Of a DNA stretch of 44,707 bases, positions 6,260 through 38,302 are shown in pieces. The notes beneath the pieces were generated by a model. It did not search any database. It had not been told where the DNA came from and worked only from the letters and a program-made list of their open reading frames with translations. Positions within the stretch are counted from its first letter, which is position 1; each line of letters starts with the position of its first letter. Origin of the DNA: Gemmataceae bacterium (GTDB lineage Bacteria; Planctomycetota; Planctomycetia; Gemmatales; Gemmataceae). A program made the position numbers and the translations under genes. The DNA is taken from the NCBI GenBank assembly GCA_009692005.1, contig SHZZ01000028.1, forward strand, positions 1 to 44,707. Direction: 5' to 3'.

Positions 6260-7480
6260 ATGACCGCGAAATTCAGGACGATATCCGCTTGGCTTGGGCC
6301 CGCCTTATTTCTTCTTGGGTCTCTGGCCTTGACCGGACCCTGTTTCAGCCAGGCCGCCGACCCCTTCTTTCAAGGTAAAAAACTGAGCGAGTGGCTCGAT
6401 TCACTCAAAACTGAGGCCGACTATTCAAAACTCCCCGAAAAGGAAAAGTTGAATCAGAGCCGTTCCCGTCGGGCTGGATTAATTGCCGTGGAGTTGCTCT
6501 CCGGATCGCTCGACCAGCGCATCCTGCCGGCCCTGGAGAAGGTGGCCAAGGGCGACCCGGAAGAAAAATTGCGAGAGGCCTCGGCGCTGGCCCTGGCCCG
6601 CGTGGCGCTCAAGCACGCGGAGAAATCCAAAAGCGAAGCGCCTCGTGAGTTTGCCGCCAGGGCTCTGGAATCGATTCTGGAAAACGAAAAGTCGAACCGG
6701 GTTCGTGAGGCCTCGGCGCAGGCCTTGGGAAAATTGGGCCCGGTGGCGGCGCGAGCTGTGCCGGCGCTGGGGAAATGTTTGCAATTGGAAGATCCTGGGC
6801 TGCGGGCCGCCGCCGCAGACACCCTGCGCCGACTGGGAATGGATGCCCTTCCAGCCATTGGCCCTTTAAGAACTCTGGCGGCGGATGGCAAAGCCGACCT
6901 GATTAGCCGGGCCTACGCGATTTTAGCCTTGGGCAATTTGGCAGACGAGGAATCGGTGCCGCTACTCCTTGGGATCTTGGCGGATGGAAAACTGCCGGTC
7001 GATTTGCGAATGCCCGCCGGGAATGCCCTGGCTGCGATGGGGGATTCCGCCGCCGCCGCTGCCCCCAAACTGGGCGAGCTATTGGTTCAAGACGCTTTTC
7101 CACGCGACTTGAAAAGGGTTGCCGCCATTGCTTTGGACAATTTCGGCCTGGCGGCGGCGCCCGCTATTCCCTCTCTTGTCGCCGCTTTGAAAGATCGCGA
7201 TGCCACCGTGCGGGCCTTTTGCTTGCACGCCTTGGGCGGGCTTGGCGCCAAGTTGGGAAGCAACCTGGCAGCGGCCAGGCGCAGTGTATTTCATTGCCTG
7301 GATGACTCCGCCCTGGAAGTGCGCCTGGCGGCTTTGGAAACTTTTGGCCGTTGGGGACCCGGTTTGGCGGATAATTCCGTCCTGGGAAAAATCGATTCTC
7401 TCACCATGGACCCGGCCAAAGAAATAAGGGAAACCGCCCAGGTGGTGCGCAGAAGGCTCAATTCAACCAACGACAAGTAA
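6260..7480 (+). CDS. Secreted HEAT-repeat protein
   Basis: The protein is 406 residues if started at the ATG at 6260, which follows TGAGG and opens directly into a signal peptide (MTAKFRTISAWLGPALFLLGSLALTG, cleavage near CFSQA). The rest is an array of helical HEAT/PBS-lyase-like repeats with recurring units such as VREASAQALGKLGPVA, LRAAAADTLRRLG and AAPAIPSLVAALKDRDATVRAFCLHALGGLG. Such repeats form a superhelical binding surface; no catalytic motif is visible. The partner is unknown. It is divergent from purA and converges on selD with only two bases between stops. Exported HEAT-repeat proteins are plentiful in planctomycetes. Confidence 0.85.
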   Translation: MTAKFRTISAWLGPALFLLGSLALTGPCFSQAADPFFQGKKLSEWLDSLKTEADYSKLPEKEKLNQSRSRRAGLIAVELLSGSLDQRILPALEKVAKGDPEEKLREASALALARVALKHAEKSKSEAPREFAARALESILENEKSNRVREASAQALGKLGPVAARAVPALGKCLQLEDPGLRAAAADTLRRLGMDALPAIGPLRTLAADGKADLISRAYAILALGNLADEESVPLLLGILADGKLPVDLRMPAGNALAAMGDSAAAAAPKLGELLVQDAFPRDLKRVAAIALDNFGLAAAPAIPSLVAALKDRDATVRAFCLHALGGLGAKLGSNLAAARRSVFHCLDDSALEVRLAALETFGRWGPGLADNSVLGKIDSLTMDPAKEIRETAQVVRRRLNSTNDK

Positions 7481-7482
7481 AC

Positions 7483-8544
7483 TCAGGCTTTAAAAATCAG
7501 CGCCGTGCCTTCCCGGGGAAGCACCTCGCCAATTACCACGGCGCAAATCGTTCCCAGGGCCAGAGCCTTTTGAATATAGTCCGCTGCCTGATCCTTGGGC
7601 AAGCTAACCACCAGCCCGCCGGAAGTCTGCGCGTCTACTGCTAATTCCACATCCAACGGAGAAGGGGATCCGATGATTTGCCAATGTGGCTGCGCATATT
7701 CCCGGTTGGTTTTGCTGGCCCTGGTAAAGAACTTCTTCTCAATCAGCGCTTCCACATTCTTAAACCGCGGCAGCTTGGATAAAGAAATGCATAAGGTGTG
7801 GCCGCAGCCGAGCGCCATTTCCAGCAGGTGGCCGGCCAGGCCGAAGCCGGTGATGTCGGTCATGCCATGAGGAGTGAATTCGGCCAGGGCCCGGGCCCCC
7901 GCCTGGTTCAATTGCATCATGCTAGCACAGGCCGCCTGGAAAATTTCTTCCGGGCATTTCCTCAGCTTGCTGGCCGTGGTGATGAACCCCGTGCCCAGGG
8001 GTTTGGTCAACACCAGGCAATCGCCCGGCCTGGCCCCGGCATTGGTCAATACTTTTTTAGGATGCACGATGCCCGTGACCGACAGGCCGAACTTGATCTC
8101 CTTATCGCGGACCGTGTGCCCGCCGACGATGGCTGCACCGGCCACCTGACATCTTTCCGCCCCGCCTTCTAATATTTTTCCCAGCCAGGTGAGCTTGGGG
8201 TCCTGGTCATCGGGGTAACCCACGAGGTTCATCGCCGTGACCGGCTCACCTCCCATGGCATAAACATCGCTGAGGGCGTTGGCCGCGGCGATCTGCCCAT
8301 AAAGAAAGGGATCATCCACCAGGGGGGGGAAGAAATCCACCGTCTGCACCAGGGCGATTTCCTCGCTGAGCTGGAAAACACCAGCGTCGTCGTGGGTTTC
8401 TGTTCCCACGAGCAAGCGCGGATCTGTGGAACGGGGAACGCTTCGCAGAACCTGCGAGATTCCTCCGGGGGGGAGTTTCCCCGCTCAGCCGGCGCAAGAA
8501 GCGTAATCGGTCAAACGCTTGGCCCGGCCAAAGAAATTGAACAC
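7483..8544 (-). CDS. selD: Selenide, water dikinase; selenocysteine-containing SelD
   Basis: SelD makes selenophosphate from selenide and ATP, the selenium donor for selenocysteine and selenouridine. Downstream of residue 40 the match is unambiguous: GTETHDDAGVF, LVQTVDFFPPLVDDP, ANALSDVYAMGG, GGHTVRDKEIKFGLSVTG, MTDITGFGLAGHLLEM and DAQTSGGL. The catalytic N terminus is found only by reading the in-frame TGA at 8485-8487 as selenocysteine, giving RLTDYASCAGUAGKLPPG. U aligns with Cys17 of E. coli SelD and K three residues later with catalytic Lys20. The frame runs back to a TAG at 8548, allowing a GTG start at 8544 (353 residues) preceded by AAAGGG; TTG at 8514 is an alternative. A SECIS-like hairpin lies at 8443-8457. 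The start is four bases after the SelW stop. Gene calling without recoding starts near 8415 and loses the active site. Confidence 0.93.
8443..8457 (-). promoter_or_regulatory. Candidate bacterial SECIS hairpin in selD
   Basis: The mRNA reads UCGCAG-GUU-CUGCGA: a perfect six-base-pair stem closing a three-base loop that begins with G. The loop starts 33 bases after the UGA codon at 8485-8487. Bacterial SECIS elements bind SelB through a short apical loop with a G near its start, roughly 16-37 bases downstream of UGA, so both shape and spacing fit. A GC-rich GGGG/CCCC pairing also lies nearer the UGA, at about 8470-8482, but its loop is too close to fit that pattern. Confidence 0.7.
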
Positions 8545-8547
8545 TTG

Positions 8548-8802
8548 CTACCCTTTCACGGGCGCCTTGCCCGCCTTCGCTTCCACGGCTTTCAGCATTT
8601 TTCCCTCGTCAGGAAAGCAGCCTTCAGCCAATTTGGAAAACAACAGTTTGCCATTTACCGTCAGTTCAAAACAGCCGCCATCGGAAGGGATCAGTTTGAA
8701 TTCTCCAATAGCCTGTTTGAAATGAGCCAGCAATTTCGCCGTCAGACTGACGGCCTGCGGCTCGTAATTTCACTTGGAACAGTAGCGCAATTCCACTTTC
8801 AT
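8548..8802 (-). CDS. SelW-like Rdx-family selenoprotein (CxxU)
   Basis: Reading the in-frame TGA at 8770-8772 as selenocysteine gives an 84-residue protein beginning MKVELRYCSKUNYEPQA, with a C8-x-x-U11 redox motif on the first beta strand as in SelW/SelT/Rdx thioredoxin-like proteins. The rest fits the family: a helix (AVSLTAKLLAHFKQAIGEF), a Gly-Cys turn (PSDGGCFELTVNGKLLFSK) and the GCFPDEGKMLKAVEAKAGK end. The ATG at 8802 has AGGAG eight bases upstream, so translation clearly begins before the TGA. A strong SECIS-like hairpin follows at 8738-8754. The family is believed to act in thiol/selenol redox reactions; the substrate is unknown. The gene is first in a two-gene operon with selD, four bases apart. 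Confidence 0.92.
8738..8754 (-). promoter_or_regulatory. Candidate bacterial SECIS hairpin in the selW-like gene
   Basis: The mRNA forms GCCGUCA-GUC-UGACGGC, a perfect seven-base-pair stem with the three-base loop GUC. The loop begins 22 bases after the UGA at 8770-8772, inside the usual 16-37 base window, and starts with G as expected for SelB recognition. Its loop closely matches the GUU loop of the selD hairpin, as would be expected if one SelB reads both. Confidence 0.8.
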
Positions 8803-8840
8803 TTTCGCTCTCCTGCTCAAAAAGACTTGGGCTGGTTAGT

Positions 8841-8869
8841 ATGCTAGGCTTGAGCCTGCGGTTGAGCAA
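8841..8869 (-). promoter_or_regulatory. Possible promoter of the selW-selD operon
   Basis: On the minus strand TTGCTC (8864-8869) and TAGCAT (8841-8846) are separated by 17 bases and lie about 40 bases ahead of the SelW start codon, in the 90-base gap shared with the divergent Tsr3-like gene. Both hexamers are only partial matches to the sigma-70 consensus. Confidence 0.35.
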
Positions 8870-8892
8870 CAAAGATCCCTGGAAGCAGGAAC

Positions 8893-9342
8893 ATGGAGCC
8901 GAGTTTTCCCCCAGCCATTATTGTGCGCCATCGCAAGGAGAACCCGAAGAAATGCTCGGTGATCCCCTTGAAGGGCCGCCCCGGGATTGAGTTTTTGAAT
9001 TACCCCTTGCAGGATAAATTCTCTCGGGAGGGCTATATCCGCCTGGCCGCCGACGGCCCGCATTTATCCACGGCGGATGTTCACCTCGGTATTTTGCTGC
9101 TTGATGGAAGCTGGCGCTGGGCAGGGGCGATGGAGAAGGATTTTTCCCATGTGCCGCCGCGCTCGCTCTCGGGTTTCCAGACTGCTTACCCGCGGGTGAG
9201 CAAACTGGGAACCGACCCGGATAACGGCCTGGCCTCCATCGAGGCGCTGTATATCGCCTTGAGGACTTTGTCCCGACCGCTGGAAGGCATCCTCGACAAT
9301 TACCGCTGGAAAGCGGAGTTCCTGTATAAAAACGGCTGGTAA
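8893..9342 (+). CDS. Tsr3-like (DUF367) putative aminocarboxypropyl transferase
   Basis: The 149-residue protein resembles Tsr3, which adds an aminocarboxypropyl group from SAM to small-subunit rRNA in eukaryotes and archaea, and more distantly the bacterial DTW-domain tRNA acp3U enzymes. Visible: an N-terminal NPKKCS box (17-22) like the DPKKCS of Tsr3, LLLDGSWRWA (68-77) matching the D-x-S/T-W motif, and YPRVSKLGTDPDNGLASIEALYIAL (99-123) matching the SAM-binding segment, then YRWKAEFL near the end. The start ATG has GGAAGCAGGA upstream. It is divergent from the selenium operon. Assignment to Tsr3 rather than DTW rests on the NPKKCS box and the SIEAL segment; its RNA target here is unknown. 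Confidence 0.72.
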   Translation: MEPSFPPAIIVRHRKENPKKCSVIPLKGRPGIEFLNYPLQDKFSREGYIRLAADGPHLSTADVHLGILLLDGSWRWAGAMEKDFSHVPPRSLSGFQTAYPRVSKLGTDPDNGLASIEALYIALRTLSRPLEGILDNYRWKAEFLYKNGW

Positions 9343-30142: not shown

Positions 30143-30178
30143 GGGGAGAAAATTTCAAGAGGCGGGTTTGCACTCTAT

Positions 30179-30290
30179 CTTATCTCGCCCGGTTCCCCGG
30201 GTAGGAGGTAGCACCTGCATCGGGGGGAAAATCCCTCCGACCGGTTGCTGTGGCTTCAACGGGCCTAATCCCTCAGCCACTCTGGATAAG
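30179..30290 (-). promoter_or_regulatory. SAM-I (S-box) riboswitch aptamer
   Basis: The minus strand carries the S-box consensus. P1 is CTTATC (30290-30285) with GATAAG (30184-30179). The kink-turn region reads CCAGAGTGGCTGAGGGA, and P2 is GTGGC/GCCAC around GGCCC and GTTGAA. AGCAACC follows, then P3 TCGG-GGGA with TCCC-CCGA, then GGTGCTACCTCC, and P4 CCCGG-GGAA-CCGGG. All core conserved blocks are in the correct order and spacing. SAM-I riboswitches turn off methionine and cysteine genes when S-adenosylmethionine is plentiful. It lies 99 bases upstream of the thrC start. Confidence 0.93.
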
Positions 30291-30311
30291 CAACTCACCA
30301 AGTTATCCCCC

Positions 30312-37879: not shown

Positions 37880-38298
37880 CATGGGCTGGCCGGGCAGCCG
37901 CTGCCCGGGGATTGCAAAATCTCTCGGGGAGAGGAAAGTCCGGGCTCCACAGGGCAAGGTGGTGGGTAACACCCACCGTTCGAGGCGGGTGTTTTTACAC
38001 CCGTTGAAGGACCGGGAAAGTGCAACAGAAAGATACCGCCCCTTCGGGGGTAAGGGTGAAATGGTGGGGGGGCCTGGCCCCTTAATGTAAGAGCCCACCA
38101 GCAGCTTGGCGACAGGCTGGCTCGGCAAACCCCGCCTGGAGCAAGACCAAATAAGAGGGAAGGACCGGTCCGGTCCGTTTGACCCTCGGGTAGGTTGCTG
38201 GAGCGGCCAGGTAACTGGCCGCCTAGAGAAATGGCTGCCTCGTGCTATGCGCCTAGCGCAAAGCGCAAGACAGAACCCGGCTTACAGGCCGGCCCGTG
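37880..38298 (+). ncRNA. rnpB: RNase P RNA, bacterial type A
   Basis: RNase P RNA is the catalytic subunit that trims the 5' leaders of tRNA precursors. The universally conserved blocks are present in order: GAGGAAAGTCCGGGCTCCAC, then ACAGAAAGATACCGCC, GGTAAGGGTGAAATGGTG, GTAAGAGCCCACCAGC, and near the 3' end AGAGAAATGGCTGCC and ACAGAACCCGGCTTACAGGC. The ends are set by a perfect 12-base P1 helix, CATGGGCTGGCC (37880-37891) with GGCCGGCCCGTG (38287-38298), allowing one G-T and one T-G pair. About 419 bases long, a little larger than the E. coli RNA. It ends 4 bases from the stop of the opposing DUF1501 gene. Confidence 0.97.
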
Positions 38299-38302
38299 AA
38301 TA

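Follow-up and report, generated by a model that had tools for sequence, protein, structure and literature searches.

The question raised by this locus is whether a short reading frame on the minus strand of a Gemmataceae contig, crossed by an in-frame UGA, is closed by that codon or read through it with Sec. It was examined in the window, i.e. the whole 44,707-nucleotide stretch of DNA that was analysed, and in related and public genomes. From comparative sequence evidence we regard it as close to certain that the locus is a planctomycete two-gene operon for two selenoproteins, a SelW-like Rdx protein with a CxxU motif and a Sec-containing SelD, expressed by SECIS- and SelB-dependent read-through, in which both UGAs would direct Sec incorporation and the two genes would be co-transcribed. 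The features of the locus, and two RNAs elsewhere in the window, are listed in Table 1.

Table 1. Coordinates of the selW-selD features and of the RNAs found in the window.
Feature	Coordinates	Strand	Remarks
selW-like CDS	8548..8802	-	84 aa, predicted Sec at residue 11, stop TAG 8550-8548
Shine-Dalgarno-like AGGAG	8810..8814	-	7 nt 5' of ATG; from sequence
Predicted Sec UGA codon of selW (CSKU)	8770..8772	-	translation and homologs
Predicted selW SECIS apical hairpin GCCGUCA-GUC-UGACGGC	8738..8754	-	folding, covariation, resampling; wider hairpin 8763-8724
selD (selenide, water dikinase)	7483..8544	-	GTG start 8544, 3 nt past selW stop; 353 aa, predicted Sec at residue 20
Predicted Sec UGA codon of selD (SCAGUAGK)	8485..8487	-	translation; homologs
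Predicted selD SECIS hairpin UCGCAG-GUU-CUGCGA	8443..8457	-	loop 33 nt after UGA
SAM riboswitch	30177-30292	-	
RNase P RNA	37882-38300	+	

The preliminary description had placed the frame at exactly these coordinates, though it gave no strand, and had noted an ATG with a good ribosome site and a CSKU motif at codons 8-11 that includes the in-frame UGA; translation of the minus strand bears this out, with the ATG at 8802-8800 and the AGGAG ahead of it. With TGA read as Sec, the product is MKVELRYCSKUNYEPQAVSLTAKLLAHFKQAIGEFKLIPSDGGCFELTVNGKLLFSKLAEGCFPDEGKMLKAVEAKAGKAPVKG, where the CxxU redox motif lies near the N terminus and U is codon 11. A scan of positions 7300-9000 found no promoter-like site 5' of selW, and the three terminator-like matches there (3.6 expected by chance) support no claim. 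A 151-aa ORF on the plus strand that overlaps the region (8392-8847) was set aside as mechanical.

By profile, the predicted product is a member of the known SelW family (SelT/SelW/SelH, Rdx), in agreement with the Rdx-family body recognised earlier from the letters alone: it scores 71.7 bits against Pfam PF10262 (Rdx; cut-off 22.6, E 5.9e-20) and 60.2 bits against NCBIfam TIGR02174 (CXXU_selWTH; cut-off 34.2), and falls below the cut-off of the narrower Campylobacter equivalog NF041051 (74.5 against 88). Solved structures of SelT/W/H-domain proteins, the family that includes 2FA8 (Atu0228), 2OBK, 2P0G and 2NPB (selenoprotein W), are matched along almost the entire length (best E 2.4e-12). The most likely role of the SelW-like protein is in thiol/selenol redox chemistry, as a small protein of thioredoxin fold.

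Under the standard code the region yields a single 61-aa ORF with a TTG start (8548-8733), exactly the shortened frame that had been foreseen for gene calling without recoding. This ORF is what speaks for a UGA that is a genuine stop, the gene being either a pseudogene or a shortened protein translated from the TTG at 8733; the ORF lacks the entire active-site motif, and the homologs are unlike those of a decayed gene. Among 88 distinct homologous sequences, collected from relatives and from a scan of public genomes, the equivalent of codon 11 is UGA in 86, with the upstream Cys kept and a hairpin paired at synonymous sites, and is GGT and TGC in the remaining two (L046 and L124, respectively). 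It had been considered that homologs might start only after this position, which would speak against Sec; their starts correspond to that of selW, and the CxxU stretch is included. A genuine stop is thus exceedingly improbable. The genome scan, carried out with the family alignment, points to a planctomycete as the source of the window: it retained 80 loci, almost all of which are labelled Planctomycetota or subgroups thereof, the other labels being one Candidatus Kuenenia record and two plain “bacterium”. In L046, whose genome (G005) still carries selB, Sec is replaced by Gly and the Cys of GGCFE, conserved elsewhere, by Ser, and one hairpin pair is broken.

The seven-base-pair hairpin with a GUC loop, 22 bases past the UGA, was described previously, and all of these particulars hold on the minus strand, where the three-nucleotide loop starts 22 nt past the UGA. 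The apical hairpin by itself has a folding energy of -11.5 kcal/mol (z -3.95); for the wider 53-nt stretch the value is -23.2 kcal/mol (z -4.5), and none of 200 shuffles was as good. In the passages of PMC13188914 that set it out, the bSECIS model has a loop of 3-9 nt, an upper stem of 4-16 bp, a G within the first two loop positions, a distance of 16-37 nt from the UGA and an MFE of at most -7.5; the selW hairpin lies within all of these limits (loop GUC, 7 bp, 22 nt, -11.5).

The stem covers the codons A-V-S-L-T/A, and as these amino acids are strongly conserved, the protein largely dictating codon positions one and two, the hairpin could be a by-product of the peptide AVSLTA and no SECIS. 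Two of its pairs link third positions on both sides, and it is at these synonymous sites that the 86 UGA sequences covary. The third positions of Ala and Thr/Ala form C-G in 71 sequences, U-A in 9, U-G in 3, G-C in 2 and C-C in 1, and those of Val and Leu form C-G in 82 and U-A, U-G, C-A and G-G in one each. The first site is a Watson-Crick pair in 82 of 86 sequences, whereas 20,000 permutations gave 63.3 on average and never more than 73; these values are not strict probabilities given the shared ancestry of the sequences, although all tests agree in direction. A five-pair core stem is present in 80 of the 86 (93%), compared with 8.7% on average and 19.8% at most after synonymous resampling with the pooled selD codon usage of the same loci. 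Furthermore, in the Gly and Cys homologs L046 and L124, whose peptide is almost unchanged here, the pair at the first of these sites is broken. A hairpin that merely follows from the peptide is therefore very unlikely; the comparisons indicate that it is selected beyond the protein constraint, since synonymous third positions that pair with each other change together and the core is commoner than after resampling. Such synonymous covariation is strong evidence for SECIS function independently of experiment. The U of the loop GU is also kept, because the loop Ser codon is AGT in 80 sequences and AGC in only one (Gly GGT in five), although selD genes from the same loci use AGC more often than AGT (125:32). 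In one UGA homolog, L141, no hairpin exists in this register; a displaced one, CAGGC-CGUGA-GCCUG, with GU near the loop start, may take its place.

Immediately 3' of selW lies selD, the second predicted Sec gene, which had not been part of the preliminary description. Its product scores 357.6 bits against the equivalog TIGR00476 (cut-off 125), and the predicted catalytic Sec is U20 in CAGUAGK. As with selW, the mechanical ORF listing shortens the gene, starting only at 8415, so that standard-code calling hides or shortens two adjacent genes, an issue shared by many planctomycete genomes. By itself the selD hairpin of the window has only moderate folding stability (-7.5 kcal/mol, z -1.7) and is just at the energy limit of the bSECIS model (loop GUU, 6 bp, 33 nt). 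Its stem pairs are retained in 33-38 of 38 Sec-SelD sequences, compared with 0-5 of 6 Cys-SelD sequences (one pair in 0 of 6), a contrast in which the gene supplies its own natural control. In other genomes, SelD matches lie in long open frames of about 630-1440 aa (G003, G007, G011, G013, G018, G022, G023, G027, G028 and G036), which are possibly the Ndh-SelD fusion form.

Read-through of in-frame UGA in two adjoining genes would also be expected if an altered genetic code assigned UGA to Trp or another residue. This carries next to no probability, given that the UGA residues fall at Cys-aligned catalytic sites (CxxU and CAGU), that selD itself terminates in UGA, and that selB, selA and tRNA-Sec, whose absence had been named beforehand as grounds for rejecting a selenoprotein, are all encoded in the source genome (4.19 Mb in 99 contigs, completeness 100). 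The tRNA-Sec has anticodon UCA and scores 65.3 bits (cut-off 47), and selA (554 bits, cut-off 268) adjoins selB (360 bits, cut-off 242) on contig 84; with SelD the set is full. SelW was found in 37 of 59 relatives, and selB accompanies it in 33 of these 37, compared with 7 of the 22 relatives in which SelW was not found (Fisher p 8e-6). At E<=1e-60, selB was not found in four SelW-positive relatives, two of which are 75-84% complete and two, G030 and G042, more than 90%.

SelB, bound to a hairpin that closely follows a UGA, brings Sec-tRNA(Sec) to that codon, and SelD makes selenophosphate for SelA. Under Sec read-through, the short stem-loop just 3' of the UGA in each coding region, with its GU-starting loop, would be bound by SelB carrying Sec-tRNA(Sec), and the ribosome would insert Sec at the UGA in place of stopping. 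SelD would supply the selenophosphate with which SelA makes Sec-tRNA(Sec), and the SelW-like protein would be a small CxxU redox protein co-expressed with it. SelD would then depend on its own product, as a Sec-containing SelD makes the selenophosphate for Sec-tRNA(Sec). Of the known routes, it would serve Sec synthesis only, because no recognisable selenouridine synthase was found in the source genome.

The pairing of the two genes recurs. Of the 77 genome-scan loci whose downstream sequence exceeds 700 nt, 29 have a co-oriented selD no more than 700 nt away, 27 of them encoding the Sec form, and further selW-selD pairs exist besides these. A Sec codon in one gene does not strictly require one in the other, since a Cys-form SelD adjoins a Sec SelW at some loci; the cultured planctomycete Aquisphaera insulae, for example, pairs a UGA-containing selW with a Cys-form SelD. 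SelW-like proteins and SelD are long-known selenoprotein families, and the gene described here is a further member of a known one. Bacterial SelW-like selenoproteins with the same CxxU, Rdx body and bacterial SECIS just past the UGA ranked first in abundance among selenoprotein families in the surveys of the Sargasso Sea (Zhang, Fomenko and Gladyshev 2005, PMC1088965) and GOS (2008, PMC2398784); in contrast to those of the ocean surveys, the present gene is from Planctomycetota and is paired with selD. The Sec-SelD likewise resembles known ones (TIGR00476) in its N-terminal catalytic-loop Sec, its own SECIS and its single-domain form, and differs in its motif, SCAGU, and in its place directly behind selW. 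The GOS survey reported Prx/SelW pairs, not SelW/SelD, and SelW-SelD is absent from the operons listed in passages of a 2026 review (PMC13188914), which name Prx/SELENOW and others. A paper on planctomycetes (PMC4807772) reports that Gemmata obscuriglobus and Isosphaera pallida possess the complete Sec machinery and that two isolates carry selenoprotein genes; its main text does not use the term SelW. The two-gene arrangement may thus be newly recognised, a modest novelty. It offers a handle on bacterial SelW function; a tentative and rather doubtful suggestion is that the recurrent pair is a functional partnership, in which the SelW-like protein either passes reduced selenium on to SelD or returns the catalytic Sec of SelD to its reduced state, and both UGAs tie expression of the pair to selenium status.

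The source genome contains other candidates. A second Rdx paralogue (L049, contig 29:44755-44994) with the motif CTSU and a strong GUU-loop hairpin after the UGA is probably another Sec protein. Two AhpC-TSA family frames with in-frame UGA, at C22:32946-33320 (L161) and C34:8660-9019 (L163), carry the motifs TGGU and UPPC, matching known Sec proteins of the peroxiredoxin-like and thioredoxin-like kinds, and three more AhpC-TSA matches each cross one TGA.
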